DNA of 64,000 nucleotides. Source: Albidovulum sediminicola (GTDB taxonomy: Bacteria > Pseudomonadota > Alphaproteobacteria > Rhodobacterales > Rhodobacteraceae). The notes under the pieces were generated by a model. That model worked only from the letters and a program-made list of their open reading frames with translations. It made no database searches and was not told where the DNA came from. Positions 54,163 to 63,763 of the stretch are shown here, piece after piece (position 1 is the first letter of the stretch; every line of letters starts with the position of its first letter). Both the position numbers and the translations under genes were made by a program. The stretch is from positions 1 through 64,000 of the forward strand of contig NZ_JAOWLA010000016.1 of assembly GCF_025751575.1 (NCBI RefSeq), given 5' to 3'.

Positions 54163-56136
54163 ATGGCGGGTAAAGATCAGGGTACGGCCGAGGCGGCTTC
54201 AAAGCATCCCATCCCGCCCGGCTTCGAGAATGCACTGGTCTCGCCGGAAGCCTACAAGGAAATGTACGCAGCCTCGATGGCCGACCCCGACGCGTTCTGG
54301 GGTGAGCAGGGCAAGCGGATCGACTGGATCAAGCCCTACACCAAGGTGAAGAACACCAACTTCAACTTCGGCGAAGTGTCGATCAAGTGGTTCGAGGATG
54401 GCGAACTGAACGTCGCCGCCAACTGCATCGACCGCCATCTGGCGACCCGCGGCGATCAGGTCGCGATCATCTGGGAACCCGATGGGCCCGAGACGCCCGC
54501 GAAGCACATCACCTACCGTGAATTGCACGACAAGGTGTGCCGCATGGCCAACGTCCTGAAAGATCAGGGCATCCAGCGCGGCGATCGCGTCGTGATCTAC
54601 CTGCCGATGATCCCCGAGGCCGCCTACGCGATGCTGGCCTGTGCGCGGATCGGCGCCATCCACTCCATCGTCTTCGCGGGCTTCTCGCCCGACGCGCTCG
54701 CCAACCGGATCAACGACAGCGAAGCCAAGGCGGTCATCACGGCCGACACCGCCCCGCGCGGCGGCCGGCGCACACCGCTGAAGGCCAACGCGGATGCCGC
54801 GCTGTTGCACTGCAAGGACTCGGTGCGTTGCCTGGTCGTCAAGCACACCGGCGACCAGACCACCTGGACCGAAGGCCGCGACATCGACGTGCTGGCCCTC
54901 ATGGGGGCCGCCTCCGCCGATTGCCCCGCAGAGGCCATGAACGCCGAGGACCCGCTGTTCATCCTCTACACCTCCGGCTCGACCGGCAAGCCGAAGGGCG
55001 TCGTTCATAGCTCGGGCGGCTACCTCGTCTATGCCTCGATGACCCAGCAGATGACCTTCGACTACAAGGACGGCGACATCTTCTGGTGCACGGCGGACGT
55101 GGGCTGGGTCACGGGGCACAGCTATATCGTCTACGGCCCGCTGGCGAACGGCGCCACGACCGTCATGTTCGAGGGCGTGCCGACCTATCCGGACGCGGGC
55201 CGCTTCTGGGCCGTCTGCGAAAAGCACAAGGTCAACCAGTTCTACACCGCCCCGACCGCGATCCGCGCGCTGATGGGCCAGGGACCGGAGTGGGTCGAGA
55301 AGTACGATCTGTCCTCGCTGCGCGTGCTGGGGTCGGTCGGCGAGCCGATCAACCCGGAAGCCTGGGTCTGGTATGACAAGCATGTCGGCAAGGGCCGCTG
55401 CCCGATCGTCGATACCTTTTGGCAGACCGAGACGGGTGGTCACATGATCACCTCGCTGCCCGGCGCGATCGAGACGAAGCCGGGCGCGGCGACGCTGCCC
55501 TTCTTCGGGGTGAAGCCCGTGGTCCTGACCGCAGAGGGCGGACAGGTTGTCGAAGGCAACGGCGTCGATGGCGTGCTGTGCATCGGCGACAGCTGGCCGG
55601 GCCAGATGCGCACCGTCTGGGGCGATCACCAGCGCTTCCAGGAAACCTACTTCCAGCAGTACAAGGGCTACTACTTCACCGGTGACGGTTGCCGCCGGGA
55701 CGAGGACGGCTACTACTGGATCACCGGCCGCGTCGATGACGTCATCAACGTCTCGGGCCACCGTATGGGCACCGCCGAGGTCGAAAGCGCGCTTGTCGCC
55801 CATGCCAAGGTCGCGGAGGCCGCTGTCGTAGGCTACCCGCACGAGATCAAGGGCCAGGGCATCTACGCCTATGTCACGCTGATGAACGGGGTTGAGCCGA
55901 CCGAGGACCTGCGCAAGGAACTGGTCAAGTGGGTGCGCACCGAGATCGGGCCGATCGCCTCGCCGGATCTCATCCAATGGGCGCCGGGCCTGCCCAAGAC
56001 CCGTTCGGGCAAGATCATGCGCCGCATCCTGCGCAAGATCGCCGAGAACGACTTCGGCGCGCTGGGCGATACCTCGACGCTGGCTGATCCGTCCGTCGTC
56101 GACGATCTGATCGACAACCGCATGAATCGGGGCTGA
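54163..56136 (+). CDS. acs: Acetyl-CoA synthetase (AMP-forming)
   Basis: A 657-residue acetate-activating ANL enzyme: acetate + ATP + CoA to acetyl-CoA + AMP + PPi. The phosphate loop is [19 protein letters not shown] (about 267-285), the W-hydroxamate block is [17 protein letters not shown], the TETG region is [12 protein letters not shown], and the regulatory/catalytic lysine is Lys617 in [11 protein letters not shown], the site that is acetylated in homologues. AAGGAG precedes the ATG. First gene of an operon-like series with adk (4-nt gap), DUF4212 and actP. Confidence 0.96.
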
Positions 56137-56140
56137 GGGC

Positions 56141-56818
56141 ATGGGCGCTTCGAACGCACCCGCCGTCGTGATCCTTCTTGGGCCGCCGGGCGCCGGGAAG
56201 GGCACGCAAGCCCGCATGCTGGAAGAGAAATTCGGCCTCGTCCAGCTGTCCACCGGGGACCTGCTGCGCGCGGCCGTCGCAGCGGGCACGCCCGCGGGTC
56301 TCGCCGCCAAGGCGGTGATGGAGGCCGGCGGCCTTGTCAGCGACGAGATCGTGCTGGCGATCCTCAAGGACCGCATGGCCGAGCCCGACACATCCCGTGG
56401 CGTCATCCTCGACGGGTTCCCGCGCACGGCGGGCCAGGCCGAGTCGCTCGACCGCCTGCTGGCCGAGGCCGGGGGCCGCGTCACCGCCGCCATCAGCCTG
56501 GAGGTCGATGACGCGGCGATGGTGGGCCGGGTTTCCGGCCGCTACACCTGCGCCGATTGCGGCGAAGGGTATCACGACGAATTCAAGCAGCCCGCCAATG
56601 CCGGCGCTTGTGACAAATGCGGCGGCACGGCGTTCAAGCGCCGCGCCGACGACAATGCCGAGACGGTGCGTGCGCGGCTTGAAGCCTACCACGCCCAGAC
56701 GGCGCCGCTGATCGCGCATTACGGGGCGATGGGTGTCCTTGAGACGATCGACGCGATGGGTTCCATCGAGGCGATCGCCGAGGGGCTAGGGACCATCGTC
56801 GGGCGCGTTTCGGCCTAG
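56141..56818 (+). CDS. Adenylate kinase, zinc-lid type
   Basis: A 225-residue long-form adenylate kinase. The P loop is GPPGAGKGTQARML, the AMP-binding region is STGDLLRAAV, and the DGFPRT motif is intact. The lid carries a Cys4 zinc site (YTCADCGEGYHDE and GACDKCGGTAFK). It lies 4 nt after acs and so can turn the AMP released by Acs into ADP (AMP + ATP). Rhodobacterales usually have another adk in the ribosomal-protein cluster, so this may be a pathway-specific paralogue, which cannot be checked here. Confidence 0.9.
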   Translation: MGASNAPAVVILLGPPGAGKGTQARMLEEKFGLVQLSTGDLLRAAVAAGTPAGLAAKAVMEAGGLVSDEIVLAILKDRMAEPDTSRGVILDGFPRTAGQAESLDRLLAEAGGRVTAAISLEVDDAAMVGRVSGRYTCADCGEGYHDEFKQPANAGACDKCGGTAFKRRADDNAETVRARLEAYHAQTAPLIAHYGAMGVLETIDAMGSIEAIAEGLGTIVGRVSA

Positions 56819-56880: not shown

Positions 56881-57138
56881 ATGGCGGATAAATCTTCATC
56901 CAACGCCTATTGGGCCGCCAATATCCGGCTGATCAGGATCCTCCTGGTCGTCTGGGCCTTGGTGTCGTTCGGCTTCGGGATCCTGCTGCGCCCGATGCTG
57001 TCGGGTATCGCAGTCGGTGGGACCGATCTCGGGTTCTGGTTTGCCCAGCAGGGCTCCATCCTCGTGTTTCTGGTGCTGATCTTCGTTTATGCCGCGCGCA
57101 TGAACAAGCTCGACCGTGAACACGGCGTGGAAGAATAA
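56881..57138 (+). CDS. DUF4212 small subunit of sodium/solute symporter
   Basis: An 85-residue membrane protein with two transmembrane helices (IRILLVVWALVSFGFGILL and SILVFLVLIFVYAARMNKLD). The N-terminal YWAANIRLIRILL and the RMNKLDREHGV ending are the DUF4212 signature. It always precedes an actP-like symporter of the VC_2705 subgroup, as here (15 nt), and is assumed to be a partner subunit. AGGGAG is 7 nt upstream of the ATG. Confidence 0.9.
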   Translation: MADKSSSNAYWAANIRLIRILLVVWALVSFGFGILLRPMLSGIAVGGTDLGFWFAQQGSILVFLVLIFVYAARMNKLDREHGVEE

Positions 57139-57153
57139 GGGAGAGCGGGGATA

Positions 57154-58911
57154 ATGGATCAGTATACCCTTAACTTGCTGGTGGTCGGCGCGACCTTCGC
57201 GCTCTACATCGGCATCGCCATCTGGGCCCGCGCGGGCTCGACGAGCGAATTCTACGCCGCCGGACGCGGCGTTCACCCGGTGATGAACGGCATGGCGACC
57301 GGCGCGGACTGGATGTCGGCGGCTTCCTTCATCTCGATGGCCGGCCTCATCGCCTTCGGCGGCTACGACACTTCCGCCTACCTGATGGGCTGGACCGGCG
57401 GCTATGTGCTGCTTGCCCTGCTTCTTGCGCCATACCTGCGCAAGTTCGGCAAGTTCACCGTGCCGGAGTTCATCGGCGACCGCTTCTATTCGCCGACCGC
57501 GCGCCTCGTGGCCGTGATCTGCCTCATCACCGCGTCGCTGACCTATGTTATCGGCCAGATGACCGGCGTCGGCGTTGCGTTCTCGCGCTTCCTCGAAGTG
57601 TCGAACGCCACCGGCCTCTACATCGGCGCGGCCATCGTGTTCATGTACGCGGTTCTTGGCGGGATGAAGGGCATCACCTACACGCAGGTTGCCCAGTACG
57701 TCGTGCTGATCATCGCCTACACGATCCCGGCCGTGTTCATCTCGCTCCAGCTGACCGGTAACCCGATCCCGGGTCTGGGTCTGTTCTCCAACGACGCCGC
57801 CACGGGCCAGCCGCTCCTGTCGACGCTCGAAGGGCTCGTGACCGAGCTTGGCTTCAAGTCCTACCTGACGCAGTCCGACACCACGTTGAACATGTTCCTC
57901 TTCACGGTGTCGCTGATGATCGGGACCGCGGGTCTGCCCCACGTCATCGTGCGCTTCTTCACGGTGCCGAAGGTTGCCGACGCGCGTTCCTCGGCGGGCT
58001 GGGCACTGGTGTTCATCGCGCTTCTTTACCTGACCGCCCCGGCCGTCGCCGCGATGGCGCGCCTGAACCTGATCAACACCTTCTACCCGAACGGTGTGGG
58101 CGAAGCGACGCTGTCGCTCGCCGAGATCGAGGCTGGCGCTGACGCCCAGGGCAAGGACATCACCTGGGTGAACAACTGGGCCAAGACCGGTCTTCTGAAG
58201 TTCGAGGACAAGAACGGCGATGGCATGATCCAGTACGTCGGCGACAAGGAAGCCAACGAACTGACCGTGAACAACGACATCATGGTTCTGGCCAACCCGG
58301 AAATCGCGCATCTGCCGGGCTGGGTAATCGCGCTCGTCGCCGCCGGTGGTCTTGCCGCCGCGCTCTCGACGGCGGCCGGTCTCTTGATGGCGATCTCGTC
58401 CGCGGTGTCGCACGACCTGATCAAGGGTCAGATCAACCCGAACATCTCGGAAAAGAGCGAGCTGCTTGCGGCGCGTATCTCGATGGGTGTGGCGATCGCG
58501 GTCGCGACCTACCTTGGCCTCAACCCGCCGGGCTTCGCCGCCCAGACGGTTGCGCTGGCCTTCGGTCTGGCTGCCGCCTCGATCTTCCCGGCGCTGATGA
58601 TGGGCATTTTCTCGAAGCGCATCAACAACGCCGGCGCGGTGGCCGGGATGCTGGCGGGCCTCCTTGTGACGGTTGTCTACATCTTCCTTCACAAGGGCTG
58701 GTTCTTCATCCCCGAGACCAACAGCTTCACCGACGCGAACCCGCTGCTGCTGTCGATCAAGTCGACCTCGTTCGGCTCGGTTGGCGCGCTCATCAACTTC
58801 GCGGTGGCCTACGTCGTCTCGGGCGCCACGAAGGAGCCGCCGGTCGAGATCCAGGACCTCGTGGAATCGATCCGCGTCCCGAAGGGCGCTGGCGCGGCCA
58901 CGCACCACTGA
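57154..58911 (+). CDS. actP: Cation/acetate-type sodium:solute symporter
   Basis: A 585-residue SSS-family transporter with about 13 transmembrane helices. The start MDQYTLNLLVVGATFALYIG, GADWMSAASFISMAGLIAFG, TYVIGQMTGVGVAFSRF, and AGLPHVIVRFFTVPKVADAR are typical of the VC_2705 subgroup. A hydrophilic insert (about 325-365) separates the C-terminal helices. Gene context (acs, adk, DUF4212) supports acetate or another short-chain acid as substrate; the precise substrate of this subgroup is less certain than for E. coli ActP. Confidence 0.87.
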   Translation: MDQYTLNLLVVGATFALYIGIAIWARAGSTSEFYAAGRGVHPVMNGMATGADWMSAASFISMAGLIAFGGYDTSAYLMGWTGGYVLLALLLAPYLRKFGKFTVPEFIGDRFYSPTARLVAVICLITASLTYVIGQMTGVGVAFSRFLEVSNATGLYIGAAIVFMYAVLGGMKGITYTQVAQYVVLIIAYTIPAVFISLQLTGNPIPGLGLFSNDAATGQPLLSTLEGLVTELGFKSYLTQSDTTLNMFLFTVSLMIGTAGLPHVIVRFFTVPKVADARSSAGWALVFIALLYLTAPAVAAMARLNLINTFYPNGVGEATLSLAEIEAGADAQGKDITWVNNWAKTGLLKFEDKNGDGMIQYVGDKEANELTVNNDIMVLANPEIAHLPGWVIALVAAGGLAAALSTAAGLLMAISSAVSHDLIKGQINPNISEKSELLAARISMGVAIAVATYLGLNPPGFAAQTVALAFGLAAASIFPALMMGIFSKRINNAGAVAGMLAGLLVTVVYIFLHKGWFFIPETNSFTDANPLLLSIKSTSFGSVGALINFAVAYVVSGATKEPPVEIQDLVESIRVPKGAGAATHH

Positions 58912-58971: not shown

Positions 58972-60798
58972 TTGAGCGACAGCGTTGAGAGCATTGCAGC
59001 GTTTCTCGCAACCGTGCATCCCTACGACAGTCTGCCGCGGGACGAACTGGCGCGTGTCGCCGGTTCCTTCAGCCGCAGAGAACTTCCCGGCAAGACCGAG
59101 GTCTATGCCTTCGGCGACCCGCTTTCGGGACTTTTCCTGGTCGAGGCCGGCGGGGTCGAGATCCTGGATCGCAACGGCGGGCTCGTCTCGCTGCTGGGGC
59201 CGCGCAATTCCTTCGGCGAACGTGGGCTTCTGCGCGACGGTCTGGCCGTGACCTGCGCGCGGACGATCGAGGATAGCCGGCTCCTGCTGCTGCCCGTTGG
59301 CGAATTGCGCCGCCTGATCGCCGGGTTCCCGGCCTTCGAGCGGTTCTTCAACCGTGGCCGGGGTGGAGAGGCGCGCGCCAACGATCTGAGCGCGCGCAAG
59401 GTTGCCGACCTGATGGCGCGCGATCCGGTGTCCTGCGGCCCGGAAACCCCCGTGGCGGAAGCCGCGCGCCAGATGCGCGATACCCATGTCTCCAGCCTCG
59501 GCGTGACGGACGAGGGCGGGCGGCTTCTGGGCATCGTCACGACACGCGACCTGTCGAACCGCGTTCTGGCGGAGGGTTTGGACGGGACCACGCCGGTCAG
59601 TGCGGTGATGACCCCCGATCCGGTCACGCTGACGCCCGAGGCGCTGGGGACCGACATCCTGCACCTGATGCTTGAGCGCAAGATCGGCCATCTGCCGGTG
59701 GTGCGCGAGGGCAGGCTGGCGGGCATGGTCACCCAGACCGATTTGACCCGCTTCCAGGCCCTGTCCTCGGCCGTCCTGATCCGCGATCTCGCCGATGCCG
59801 CGACAGTTGCGGACATGGCGGCGGTCACGGCGCGCATCCCCTCGCTTCTGGTGCAACTGGTCGGCGGCCACAACGCGCATGAGGTCGTCACCCGGCTGAT
59901 CACCGACATCGCCGATGCGGTGACACGGCGGCTCTTGTCGATGGCGGAGGTCACGCTTGGCGCCCCGCCCGTGCCCTACCTCTGGCTCGCCTGCGGATCG
60001 CAGGGAAGGCAGGAACAGACGGGCGTGTCCGACCAGGACAACTGCCTGATGATCGACGACAGCGCGACCAACGACGACATGGCCTATTTCCGCGATCTGG
60101 CCAAGCTCGTCTCGGACGGTCTGGATGCCTGCGGCTATGTCTACTGCCCCGGCGACATGATGGCGACGAACCCGCGCTGGTGCCAACCGGTTCGCGTCTG
60201 GCGCGACTACTTCCGCGGCTGGATCGCGGCGCCCAACCCGGAGGCGCAGATGCTCGCCTCGGTCATGTTCGACCTGCGCCCGATCGGCGGCGCGGTCAGC
60301 CTCTTCGGCAACCTTCAGTCCGAGACGCTGGAGGCGGCGGCGAAGAACTCGATCTTCGTCGCGCACATGATCTCGAACTCTCTGAAACACACCCCGCCGC
60401 TCGGGCTCCTGCGCGGGTTCGCGACGATCCGGTCGGGCGAACACCGCAACCACATTGATCTGAAGCACAACGGCGTGGTTCCCGTCGCGGACCTGGCGCG
60501 CGTCTACGCACTGCAAGGGCGGCTGACGCCTGCGAACACGCGCGCGCGGCTTCTCGCGGCGGCCGGGGCCGAGGTGATCTCCGCCTCTGGCGCGCGCGAC
60601 CTGACCGAGGCCTATGACCTGATCGCGGAAACGCGGCTGGCCAACCAGGCCCGCCAGATCAAGGCCGGGCGCAAGCCCGACAATTATCTTGCCCCCTCCG
60701 ACCTGTCGGATTTCGAGCGCAGCCATCTGCGCGATGCCTTCGTGGTCGTGCGCACGATGCAGTCGGCGGTGGGGCAGGGCAAAGGCATGCTGGGATAG
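58972..60798 (+). CDS. cNMP-binding/CBS/DUF294 nucleotidyltransferase-like protein
   Basis: A 608-residue cytosolic regulatory protein. Domains: cyclic-nucleotide-binding fold (about 15-125, YAFGDPLSGLFLVEAGGVEI), two CBS domains (about 145-265, ending GRLAGMVTQTDLTRFQ), DUF294 nucleotidyltransferase core (about 300-430; LACGSQGRQEQTGVSDQDNC with the GS...D-x-D motif) and DUF294_C (about 470-605). The start is TTG at 58972 with AGGAGG 5 nt upstream. DUF294 resembles the GlnD uridylyltransferase domain, so it may modify a protein or sense adenylates; both are inference. It is regularly found beside DUF4212/actP genes. Confidence 0.87.
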   Translation: MSDSVESIAAFLATVHPYDSLPRDELARVAGSFSRRELPGKTEVYAFGDPLSGLFLVEAGGVEILDRNGGLVSLLGPRNSFGERGLLRDGLAVTCARTIEDSRLLLLPVGELRRLIAGFPAFERFFNRGRGGEARANDLSARKVADLMARDPVSCGPETPVAEAARQMRDTHVSSLGVTDEGGRLLGIVTTRDLSNRVLAEGLDGTTPVSAVMTPDPVTLTPEALGTDILHLMLERKIGHLPVVREGRLAGMVTQTDLTRFQALSSAVLIRDLADAATVADMAAVTARIPSLLVQLVGGHNAHEVVTRLITDIADAVTRRLLSMAEVTLGAPPVPYLWLACGSQGRQEQTGVSDQDNCLMIDDSATNDDMAYFRDLAKLVSDGLDACGYVYCPGDMMATNPRWCQPVRVWRDYFRGWIAAPNPEAQMLASVMFDLRPIGGAVSLFGNLQSETLEAAAKNSIFVAHMISNSLKHTPPLGLLRGFATIRSGEHRNHIDLKHNGVVPVADLARVYALQGRLTPANTRARLLAAAGAEVISASGARDLTEAYDLIAETRLANQARQIKAGRKPDNYLAPSDLSDFERSHLRDAFVVVRTMQSAVGQGKGMLG

Positions 60799-60806
60799 GG
60801 CAGGAC

Positions 60807-61310
60807 ATGATCTGGGAACTGGTTGCAATGGTGATCGCGGGCGTCGGAGCGGCGGGCGCCCTCTTGCTGGTCGCCCGGATCTTCCGCTGGAAGCTGCCGA
60901 AATGGGCGGTCCCGGCGACGGTTGGCCTGGCGATGTTCGCCTTCGCCGTCTGGAATGAATACGATTGGTATCCGCGCGTCCGCGATGAGCTGCCCGAAAG
61001 TGTCCGCATCGTTTCGGCCCCCGGCAGCTCGGCCGCCTACCAGCCCTGGACCTATGCCTTCCCGATCGTCCGGCGCTTCGTGGCGATCGATCTGGGCGCC
61101 GCGATCCACTCCGAAACCGCGCCGCGGCAATTCGTTGCCCCGGTGATGTTCGTCGAGCGTTGGGCGCCGATCAGACAGCTTCCCTTCGCCTTCGACTGCG
61201 AGGGCGGCCGCCGGTCCGACGTGTTCCCCGGCGGCAGGATCGAAGACACGGAATGGCTGACGCCGGGGCCGGAGGACGACCTCCTGGCTGCGGCCTGCGC
61301 GGGAGGGTGA
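60807..61310 (+). CDS. Membrane-anchored protein of unknown function
   Basis: A 167-residue protein with two N-terminal hydrophobic helices (WELVAMVIAGVGAAGALLLV and WAVPATVGLAMFAFAVWNEY) and a soluble domain of about 110 residues. A conserved-looking patch is DWYPRVRDELPESVRIVS and PWTYAFPIVRRFVAIDL. Two cysteines lie near the C terminus (FDCEGG and AACAGG). I do not recognise a family. It is located 8 nt after the DUF294 gene and 1 nt before the response regulator, so it belongs to the same operon. Confidence 0.65.
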   Translation: MIWELVAMVIAGVGAAGALLLVARIFRWKLPKWAVPATVGLAMFAFAVWNEYDWYPRVRDELPESVRIVSAPGSSAAYQPWTYAFPIVRRFVAIDLGAAIHSETAPRQFVAPVMFVERWAPIRQLPFAFDCEGGRRSDVFPGGRIEDTEWLTPGPEDDLLAAACAGG

Positions 61311-61311
61311 C

Positions 61312-61716
61312 ATGGCGGACAGCGCGACGAAACCGCGGGTTCTGGTTGTCGAGGATGAAGACAACATCGCCATCGCGCTCGACTACCTGCTGACGCGCGA
61401 AGGCTATGATCACGACCGGGTCGCCAATGGCGCCGAGGCCATGCCGCGCATCCGCTCCGATCGCCCCGATGTCGTGCTTCTGGACGTGATGCTGCCCGAG
61501 GTCTCGGGCTACGAGATCTGCCAGGACATCCGCATGGACCCCGACCTGCGCGGGGTGAAGATCCTGATGATGACCGCGCGCGGCTCCGCGATGGAACGGC
61601 GCAAGGGGTTGGCCCTGGGCGCAGACGGTTTCATCGCCAAGCCCTTTGAACTGAAGGAACTGCGCGAGGAACTGCGGCGGCTGATCGACGCCGAAGGGGG
61701 CAACAGCGATGCTTGA
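61312..61716 (+). CDS. Single-domain response regulator
   Basis: A 134-residue receiver domain with no output domain. Acidic pocket VLVVEDEDNI, phosphoacceptor Asp in DVVLLDVMLPEVSG (near residue 57), Thr in KILMMTARGS and Lys in FIAKPFELKEL are all present, so it can be phosphorylated. GGAGGG precedes the ATG. It overlaps the next gene, an apparently inactive kinase-like protein, by 8 nt, so its phosphodonor is probably elsewhere or the partner acts by binding only. Confidence 0.9.
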   Translation: MADSATKPRVLVVEDEDNIAIALDYLLTREGYDHDRVANGAEAMPRIRSDRPDVVLLDVMLPEVSGYEICQDIRMDPDLRGVKILMMTARGSAMERRKGLALGADGFIAKPFELKELREELRRLIDAEGGNSDA

Positions 61717-63763
61717 GAGACTGGGCCTCCGGCTCAGGGTCTTCCTGTTCTTCGCCTTCCTGGCCACGGCGGGCATCGCGGCCATCGTCCTCGGCCTCTG
61801 GGTCGGCTATCACCGGGTTGAAAGCGCGGGGATCGTGTCGGCCTTCGTCATGGCCGGGGCTGTCGGCGGGTTCGCGGTCCTGGGCCTGACCGCCTGGGTC
61901 TGGTTCCTGTTCGACGAGAACGTCGCCCGCGCCATCGGCCGTATCGCCGGCGGGATGCGGGCCGAGGCCCATGCGGGCGGCGCGGCGCTTAACGAAAACG
62001 CCGCGCGCTACCTGGGCGATCTGGCACCGGCGGCGGCGGCGGTCACGGAAACGCTTAGCGAAACCCGCAACGCCCTCGCTGAAGCCGTGCAGCGGGAAAC
62101 CGTGCGGCTGGCCGCGGAAAAGGCGCGGCTTGAAACGCTGCTGGCCGATGTGCCGGTGGGGGTGCTTTTGTGCTCCGCCGATCATCAACTCGTCTTCTAC
62201 AACGGTCAGGCGGTGGACCTTCTGGGCGCCGGCGCGGCCCCTGGCCTTGATCGCTCGATCTTCGCCTATCTGCGCGAAGGCCCGGTGCGGCAGGCGCATG
62301 ACAGGCTCATCGCCATCGGCGATGGCGAGGCGGCCTCGGACCTTTTGTGCGCAACGGTTTCAGGGGCGCGGGTGCTGGCGGCGCGGATGCGTCTTTTGTC
62401 GGACGGCGGCTATGTGCTGACGCTGCGCGATGTGACCGGCGATCTGGCCGCCCATGCGGCGCGCGAACGCCTTCTGGCGGAAATCTTCGACCGCATCCGG
62501 CGACCGGCGGCGAACCTGCAGACCGCGATCGGCGTGATGGCCGAGGGGAACCGGTCCCCCGAGGTCGCGGGCGCCATGGTGCATGAGGCGACGACGCTCG
62601 TGCACGCGGTCAACGATCTGGCCGCGCGCTACGACGCGGAGCGGGCGGGCTGGTGGCCCCTTCCGATGGTGCGCGCGGCGGACCTGACGGATTCGTTGCG
62701 CGCGCGCGCCGAGGCCGCGGGCCTGTCGATGACGACCGGGGCCGCCGACCTCATCCTGCGCTGCGACGGGTTCGAGATCGTGGCGCTGGTCGCGCATCTT
62801 GCCGAGGCGGTCGCGGAGGCGACCGGACAGCAGAGCTTCGCCCTGAGCCTTGCCGAGGACGGGGCCGGCGCGGTCATTGACCTTGAGTGGGAAGGCGATC
62901 CGATCGCCATCGGCCGCCTCGACGGCTGGCTTGCCGCCCCGGTCGATGCCGCGGCGCCCGATGTCACGGGACGCGCGGTGCTGGACACGCACGCGACGGA
63001 ATGCTGGCCCGAACGGCGGCCCGGCGGGCGGGCGGTGATCCGCCTGCCGCTGCGCGACGCCCGCCGGGCGGCCCGGCGCCCGGCGCCCATCTCGCGGGCG
63101 GTCGTCTATGATTTCGACCTCTTGTCGAAGGGCCGCAGCGCGGCGGTGATGGAGGCGGCGCTCGGCGATCTGACCTATGTCGTCTTCGACACCGAAACGA
63201 CGGGCCTTTTGCCCAGCCAGGGCGACGAGATCGTGCAGCTTGCCGCCGTCCGTATCGTCAACGGCCGCCGCGTGGAGCGCGAGGCGATGGACCTGCTCGT
63301 CAACCCGGGCCGTTCCATCCCGCCCCGCGCGACCGAGGTGCATGGCATCACCGAGGCGATGGTGGCCGATGCGCCCGGCATCGCCGAGGTCGGCCGGCGC
63401 TTCCACGACTTCGCCGAGGGCGCGGTACTGATCGCGCATAACGCGCCCTTCGACATGGAGTTCCTCCGCCGCCACGAGGCGGAGATCGGCGCGCGCTTCG
63501 ACAACCCGATCCTCGACACCGTCCTCCTGTCGGCCGTCGTCTTCGGTCAGGGGGAGACGCACAGCCTTGATGCGCTGACCCACCGCCTGGGCATCACCAT
63601 CCCGGAAGAGGCGCGCCATACCGCCATCGGTGACACGCTCGCCACCGCTGACGCTTTCCTCAAGCTCCTGCCGATGCTGGAGGCGCAGGGCATCCGCACC
63701 TTCGGCGATGTCCTGGCCGAGGTGAAGAAGCACGGGCGGCTGCTCAAGGACCTGAACGCCTGA
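61709..63763 (+). CDS. Membrane PAS/pseudo-histidine-kinase fused to DnaQ-type 3'-5' exonuclease
   Basis: A 684-residue fusion. Two transmembrane helices (about 11-33 and 41-68) are followed by a coiled coil (about 110-142), a PAS-like domain (about 143-245), a region aligned to HisKA/HATPase (about 251-455) and a C-terminal DEDDh exonuclease (about 488-660). In the kinase-like part, the H-box position reads IFDRIRRPAANL with Asp261 in place of His, and the N-box VALVAHLAEAVAEAT lacks the Asn, so it is probably not an active kinase. The exonuclease residues are intact: Asp494 and Glu496 (FDTETTGL), Asp582 (HNAPFD), His637 and Asp642 (HTAIGDT). Function is unknown. Confidence 0.85.
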   Translation: MLERLGLRLRVFLFFAFLATAGIAAIVLGLWVGYHRVESAGIVSAFVMAGAVGGFAVLGLTAWVWFLFDENVARAIGRIAGGMRAEAHAGGAALNENAARYLGDLAPAAAAVTETLSETRNALAEAVQRETVRLAAEKARLETLLADVPVGVLLCSADHQLVFYNGQAVDLLGAGAAPGLDRSIFAYLREGPVRQAHDRLIAIGDGEAASDLLCATVSGARVLAARMRLLSDGGYVLTLRDVTGDLAAHAARERLLAEIFDRIRRPAANLQTAIGVMAEGNRSPEVAGAMVHEATTLVHAVNDLAARYDAERAGWWPLPMVRAADLTDSLRARAEAAGLSMTTGAADLILRCDGFEIVALVAHLAEAVAEATGQQSFALSLAEDGAGAVIDLEWEGDPIAIGRLDGWLAAPVDAAAPDVTGRAVLDTHATECWPERRPGGRAVIRLPLRDARRAARRPAPISRAVVYDFDLLSKGRSAAVMEAALGDLTYVVFDTETTGLLPSQGDEIVQLAAVRIVNGRRVEREAMDLLVNPGRSIPPRATEVHGITEAMVADAPGIAEVGRRFHDFAEGAVLIAHNAPFDMEFLRRHEAEIGARFDNPILDTVLLSAVVFGQGETHSLDALTHRLGITIPEEARHTAIGDTLATADAFLKLLPMLEAQGIRTFGDVLAEVKKHGRLLKDLNA

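Follow-up and report, generated by a model that had tools for sequence, protein, structure and literature searches.

A receiver gene, a pseudo-histidine-kinase and a DEDDh exonuclease joined in an acetate operon of Albidovulum sediminicola

Gene order and domain composition of the locus

The 64,000-nucleotide stretch of Albidovulum sediminicola DNA analysed here (contig NZ_JAOWLA010000016.1, positions 1 to 64,000; referred to below as the window) carries a gene for a protein of 684 residues in which membrane helices, a PAS-like domain, a kinase-like region and a DEDDh exonuclease are joined in a single open reading frame (ORF). The genes of the operon all lie on the forward strand in the order acs, adk, DUF4212, symporter, cNMP/CBS/DUF294, 167-residue protein, receiver and exonuclease, with an 8-base overlap between the stop of the receiver gene and the start of the exonuclease ORF at 61709. 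A first-pass annotation, made from the sequence alone, had placed the fusion gene in an acetate operon next to a free-standing receiver; this was borne out by the acs and VC_2705-type symporter genes upstream and by the Response_reg match and conserved phosphorylation residues of the adjoining protein (Table 1). The closest named relatives of the 684-residue protein, among the best 80 of 397 loci, were from Defluviimonas genomes, and full-length relatives were found in other genomes. The position of the exonuclease gene beside acetate genes and DUF294 was conserved among the relatives.

The N-terminal part of the protein gave hydropathy peaks at residues 5–35 and 39–69, and the structural model contained helices at 7–35 and 42–89. 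Pfam matches to PAS were obtained at residues 139–248, all of them sub-threshold, and the model agreed with this assignment (mean pLDDT 81.3). The kinase-like region was examined using profile and structure comparisons. With the Pfam models HisKA and HATPase_c, the window protein had no match up to E = 1, and the excised region of 55 relatives had none up to E = 0.1; one distant relative gave a HisKA match of 0.0025, below the cut-off. The only PDB sequences matched by a profile of the region at E ≤ 0.1 were four histidine kinase sequences, the best at 0.017; in the alignment with them, residue 261 fell on the acceptor histidine. The AlphaFold model of residues 241–458 had a mean pLDDT of 87.4, and its matches to kinase structures indicated that both the DHp and the ATPase folds are present, the best 50 of 711 matches including LvrB (2.0e-10), DivL (2.7e-10) and HK853, ZraS and other kinases in the range 1e-7 to 1e-10. 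The TM-scores against kinases were modest, at 0.39–0.47 by query, and were read as a different placement of the two sub-domains. Judged from the model, the middle region is a histidine kinase by fold and not by sequence profile, consistent with the membrane-anchored, kinase-like layout of two helices, PAS and kinase fold that had been proposed for the protein.

Alignment of 116 receiver-bearing relatives revealed Asp at the acceptor position 261 in 75 proteins, Glu in 34, Ala in 7 and His in none. Any His within residues 250–275 was confined to 16 of the 116, at scattered places. The N-box Asn was not kept, with columns 363 and 366 mixed, and Trp394 was found at the aligned G1-box Asp position in 115 of the 116. 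The replacement of the acceptor His by Asp261 and the missing N-box Asn, both claimed in the first-pass annotation, thus held, and the homologues contained neither a conserved acceptor His nor any loss of the DEDDh residues. The acidic residue at 261 could mimic a His that is phosphorylated or deprotonated, and its replacement by Ala in 7 proteins shows that an acidic side chain is not essential throughout. The protein was classed not as a histidine kinase but as an exonuclease that carries a pseudo-histidine-kinase module and would work like DivL.

The exonuclease domain matched RNase_T (PF00929) over residues 491–650 with an E value of 6.2e-37, over the Pfam cut-off. The five DEDDh residues were kept in every relative row with a letter there (116 receiver-bearing, 49 short and 17 helix-truncated rows, with few gaps, contig-cut rows included), so that the attached exonuclease, as first noted, looks intact from its sequence. 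The nearest PDB sequences were the PolC and DnaQ exonuclease domains, which share RNase_T and the five DEDDh residues with the window protein; unlike these, the window protein adds a membrane anchor, a PAS-like part and a dead kinase and lies in an acetate-uptake context. A separate DnaQ-like ORF is present in the same genome (G000:C11:161275-161781, frame 238 aa). Among the 25 NCBIfam matches listed only generic exonuclease models were found, with TIGR00573 alone over cut-off, and no REC-exonuclease fusion was found at E ≤ 10 among exonuclease frames. The PADLOC matches (DEDDh, PDC-S48 and receiver-like models) were interpreted as domains in common with defence systems, and a defence role was rejected.

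Table 1. Coordinates of the operon genes and of the parts of the fusion protein in the window
Feature	Position	Strand	Basis
Acetyl-CoA synthetase (acs)	54163..56136	+	Named from sequence; relatives at same place
Adenylate kinase (adk)	56141..56818	+	Pfam ADK 3.6e-52
DUF4212 symporter small subunit	56881..57138	+	TIGR03647 over cut-off
VC_2705-family sodium/solute symporter, acetate-type	57154..58911	+	TIGR03648 E 6.2e-249, over cut-off
cNMP-binding/CBS/DUF294 nucleotidyltransferase, motif GS..R.E..DQD	58972..60798	+	Pfam
167-aa protein, function unassigned, conserved in operon	60807..61310	+	Upstream of exonuclease gene in most relatives
Single-domain receiver, 134 aa, phosphorylation site D58	61312..61716	+	Response_reg 4.3e-27, residue conservation
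Membrane/PAS/pseudo-histidine-kinase/DEDDh exonuclease fusion, 684 aa	61709..63763	+	ORF list, Pfam, model
Two membrane helices, residues about 7-35 and 42-66	61727..61906	+	Hydropathy, model
PAS-like domain, residues 139-241	62123..62431	+	Sub-threshold Pfam PAS, model strands/helices
DHp-like two-helix region, residues 243-315	62435..62653	+	Model helices 243-278 and 284-315; kinase matches
D261 codon, phosphoacceptor position	62489..62491	+	Alignments with kinases and relatives
HATPase-like fold without N-, G1- or full G2-box, residues 316-455	62654..63073	+	Model, alignments
DEDDh exonuclease domain, residues 489-660 (D494, E496, D582, H637, D642)	63173..63688	+	RNase_T, PDB sequence matches

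Shared presence and loss of the receiver gene and the DHp-like helices

The presence of the receiver gene was compared with that of the DHp-like helices among relatives of the fusion gene. The loci came from the best 80 of 397, further relatives, 80 hand-picked places and DUF294-anchored loci, and do not form a random sample. The 199 loci with an exonuclease frame of at least 440 residues gave 186 non-redundant ones, of which six contig-cut rows were dropped to leave 180; L216, a stand-alone exonuclease in an over-long frame, was then removed to leave 179 and is still contained in the tree and the gap table. A wider tally, 288 of 296, was set aside as a measure of how many relatives there are, since weak PAS-type matches contribute to it. 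A receiver was defined as a match at E < 1e-5 to a profile of these receivers, lying no more than 2.5 kb upstream and in the same orientation, and full-length helices as at least 60 residues between 245 and 316.

Receiver gene and helices were both present at 113 of the 179 loci and both missing at 63; helices occurred alone at three loci and the receiver alone at none. The Rhodobacter capsulatus locus L065 carries the receiver together with the complete protein. The 63 loci with neither comprised 48 without any kinase-like part, showing that this part is dispensable to the membrane-PAS-exonuclease protein, and 15 that retained the ATPase-like part, in which the helices were shortened or gone. 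Because these 15 receiver-less loci still contain the ATPase-like part, it is the putative docking helices that the receiver follows. The phosphorylation residues of the receiver were well conserved, with D58 and K110 each found in 101 of 102 relatives, the window included, and Thr or Ser at position 88 in 100.

Independent pairs were counted on a tree for which only the membrane/PAS and exonuclease columns were used, and on which 12 changes of the receiver and 9 of the helices were found. For rows differing in the helices there were six supported independent pairs, in which the receiver went the same way in 5.4 on average and the opposite way in 0 (median p 0.0625). Rows differing in the receiver gave eight supported pairs, with the helices going the same way in 5.5 and the opposite way in 0 (median p 0.031); the ATPase-like part went the same way as the receiver in only 2.6 of the 8.

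The other operon genes were mostly retained at the receiver-less loci. DUF294 was found upstream at 112 of 113 receiver loci, 45 of 48 short forms and 15 of 16 helix-less forms. The gap between the genes of the 167-residue protein and the exonuclease had a median of 424 bp at the receiver loci (101 of 113 measured), compared with 12 bp for the short forms (39 of 48) and 70 bp for the helix-less forms (12 of 16). At one locus, L228 (G400:C126), there is no receiver and the helices are shorter by about 70 residues, whereas four loci sharing its genus code (L223, L227, L229 and L230) contain the receiver and the helices. The 167-residue protein itself gave no family match over cut-off in Pfam or NCBIfam; by eye it has a hydrophobic start, and its gene is kept before the receiver or exonuclease gene whether or not a receiver is present.

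Relatives of the exonuclease fusion were found on 35 plasmid records, 20 of them from Paracoccus; Ciceribacter, Neorhizobium, Rhizobium and Cupriavidus are among the sources of the rest. This distribution suggests that the gene moves horizontally. The fusion is common across its family, and the annotation in 8 plasmid records was 3'-5' exonuclease, hypothetical protein or none. One receiver-less locus, L078, is from the gammaproteobacterium Alkalisalibacterium limincola (NCBI taxonomy) and is a close relative of the alphaproteobacterial gene, with 62% over the N-terminal part; transfer or contamination may account for this.

Nucleotidyltransferase partner, candidate kinase and related systems

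The DUF294 partner was examined by searching 80 genomes of the phylum for DUF294_C. Of 47 places over cut-off 43 were examined, the other four being a place where the contig ends and three weak matches in frames of more than 1000 residues. An exonuclease was found within 4.5 kb at 41 of the 43 places, at 38 of them on the same strand within 3.3 kb and often about 100 bp downstream, so the DUF294 nucleotidyltransferase is a near-constant partner of the exonuclease, one on which the first-pass annotation had not drawn. The remaining places were a fusion (L232) and one with no exonuclease nearby (L237). The fusion, at L232:6503-8638 on the reverse strand, is a natural single frame of the order exonuclease (RNase_T)-CBS-CBS-DUF294-DUF294_C. 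Most of the paired exonucleases are short stand-alone frames without a membrane part, and 11 distant loci carry the full membrane/PAS/kinase-like/exonuclease arrangement or a shorter variant. The motif GS..R.E..DQD was present in 206 of 208 DUF294 proteins, and DUF294_C is grouped with GlnD/GlnE-type C-terminal domains in a passage of PMC3710099.

In a comparison based on the L223 kinase fragment, at four of the 11 distant loci (L223, L224, L225 and L231) the exonuclease gene is followed within 183 bp by the gene of an intact SLC5-type kinase with a symporter-like N-terminus; a different kinase-type frame follows at L230, and four others end too soon downstream for the presence of a kinase to be judged. 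In Pfam this kinase gave HisKA and HATPase_c only, over cut-off, and the symporter likeness of its N-terminus corresponds to weak tblastn matches. A 42%-identical homologue lies elsewhere in the genome of the window (C70), and homologues were present in 13 of 13 genus members examined. The SLC5-type kinase is a candidate partner of the receiver. SLC5/STAC histidine kinases such as CrbS and RpuS share the physiological setting of the window protein and differ from it in being active-looking, with HisKA and HATPase_c over cut-off; RpuS/R and CrbS/R are carried by alphaproteobacteria according to a section of PMC9100948.

The nearest published arrangement is that of Pseudomonas putida KT2440, where, according to PMC9927547, MxtR/ErdR (CrbS/CrbR), an SSS/STAC histidine kinase system, controls an operon in which pp_0354, encoding a CBS protein, is followed by pp_0353, encoding an RNase_T exonuclease. 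Deletion of neither gene affected growth on 20 mM acetate, and growth on pyruvate was delayed by deletion of pp_0353, as by that of actP-I, but not by deletion of pp_0354. The homologues in P. aeruginosa PAO1 adjoin actP and yjcH, and the role of pp_0353 was called unclear, with decay of mRNAs of metabolic genes or transporters as a speculation. For Pseudomonas, then, a two-component system paired with this nuclease gene has been published before, as regards transcription and growth. The comparison with pp_0353, which is described without a membrane or kinase-like part, is one of descriptions and not of sequences. Pflu5625 of P. fluorescens, a cAMP-binding/CBS/nucleotidyltransferase protein, was studied as CrbS/R-controlled, gave no mutant phenotype and was predicted to act via nucleotidylation, as stated in parts of PMC5715377. 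Exonuclease terms were absent from the CrbS/R papers PMC8402216 and PMC5436829, and no description of the fusion or of the DUF294/exonuclease pairing was found among the matches listed from the open-licence PMC literature.

The closest functional parallel is DivL of Caulobacter, which binds DivK~P yet has no kinase or phosphatase activity (text in PMC4211667). Both DivL and the window protein have a kinase fold without the acceptor His, and DivL is among the best structure matches. They differ at the acceptor position, which is Tyr in DivL and Asp, Glu or Ala here, and in the exonuclease attached here; DivL reads a phosphorylated single-domain receiver, and the putative link to a receiver here is an indirect one, drawn from gene co-occurrence.

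Proposed control of the exonuclease and alternative explanations

We consider it somewhat more probable than not, from the comparisons above, that the receiver docks on the dead kinase-like part, as DivK~P does on DivL, and so controls a membrane-bound DEDDh exonuclease. The kinase-like part would have lost phosphotransfer and would serve as a reader. The receiver would be phosphorylated elsewhere, plausibly by the SLC5/CrbS-like histidine kinase, and would then dock on the DHp-like helices, altering the activity, access or placement of the exonuclease at the membrane beside the acetate-type symporter. The exonuclease would act on something made or modified by the DUF294 nucleotidyltransferase. 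The earlier suggestion that a sensor domain governs the nuclease is retained in part: the shared loss of receiver and helices strengthens the link to the receiver, and the receiver is the likely input to the kinase-like part, which need not respond to a ligand of the sensor.

Several observations weigh against receiver docking. The 60-residue threshold for the helices was fixed after the alignment had been viewed (the receiver-bearing locus closest to it, L186, has 61 residues). Helices are found without a receiver at L078, L174 and L187, and also at L095, which lies outside the sample with a frame under 440 residues, its gene being cut by the contig, and was not counted. At L028 an SLC5-type kinase has a receiver next to it and the exonuclease protein has no kinase-like part, indicating that such receivers have other roles. 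There is no SLC5-type kinase in at least 3.8 kb downstream at L226 and L227; in G005, G008 and G009 the kinase is present and the best match to the window protein is merely a generic DnaQ-like ORF; and in genus members (L242, L243) the kinase has its own single-domain receiver upstream. With only six to eight supported independent pairs, the receiver/helix association is suggestive, not conclusive. These few pairs, the four helix-bearing loci without a receiver and the arrangement at L028 also agree with a different role, in which the kinase-like part serves the PAS and membrane parts only as a dimeriser or as a linker that passes signals on, the receiver acts elsewhere and their joint loss is coincidental trimming of the operon; the lost ATP-binding motifs and the 48 relatives without the kinase-like part also fit this. 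We regard it as unlikely, since the helices are missing at none of the 113 receiver-bearing loci, the receiver tracks the helices better than the ATPase-like part, and the remaining upstream genes are mostly kept where the receiver is gone.

Two further explanations carry very little weight. That the protein is a proofreading exonuclease of replication or repair, in the operon by chance, would agree with PolC and DnaQ proofreading domains as its nearest characterised relatives, and is very improbable given the membrane anchor of the family, the separate DnaQ-like ORF in the same genome and the conserved place beside acetate genes and DUF294. An active two-component kinase with Asp or Glu as acceptor is scarcely credible at all: the acidic residue with which 109 of 116 relatives replace the acceptor His would suit it, but the Ala in the other 7, the lost N-box Asn and the Trp at the G1 Asp position would not.

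The substrate of the exonuclease can be viewed in two ways, neither of which we hold more than tentatively; the small RNAs, nanoRNA or dinucleotide suggested in the first-pass annotation are candidates only. The enzyme could degrade RNA (mRNA, small RNA or nanoRNA) as an output of carbon signalling, with no special tie to a nucleotidyltransferase product. The RNase_T/DEDDh domain and the mRNA-degradation speculation made for pp_0353 in PMC9927547 favour this possible role; such a general role leaves the DUF294 pairing, at 41 of 43 places together with one fusion, unexplained. The bolder possibility, which we likewise put forward only as a conjecture, is a nucleotidylation switch on monocarboxylate uptake, of which the eraser, in this lineage, would lie in the membrane and be gated by docking of the receiver on the dead kinase. 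DUF294 would add nucleotides to the symporter, its small subunit or RNA and lower uptake, the DEDDh exonuclease would strip them and raise it, and the short forms without the kinase-like part would be ungated erasers. As loss of the eraser would resemble loss of the symporter and loss of the writer would be harmless, such a switch would explain the asymmetry between pp_0353 and pp_0354.

If the proposed scheme is correct, two-component signalling would gain an exonuclease output through a kinase that phosphorylates nothing, and the idea embodied by DivL would reach beyond cell-cycle control. It would also give a simple account, open to testing, of the presence of a nucleotidyltransferase and an exonuclease beside acetate/pyruvate symporter genes in many Pseudomonadota, and of an unexplained growth phenotype of P. 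putida already in print.

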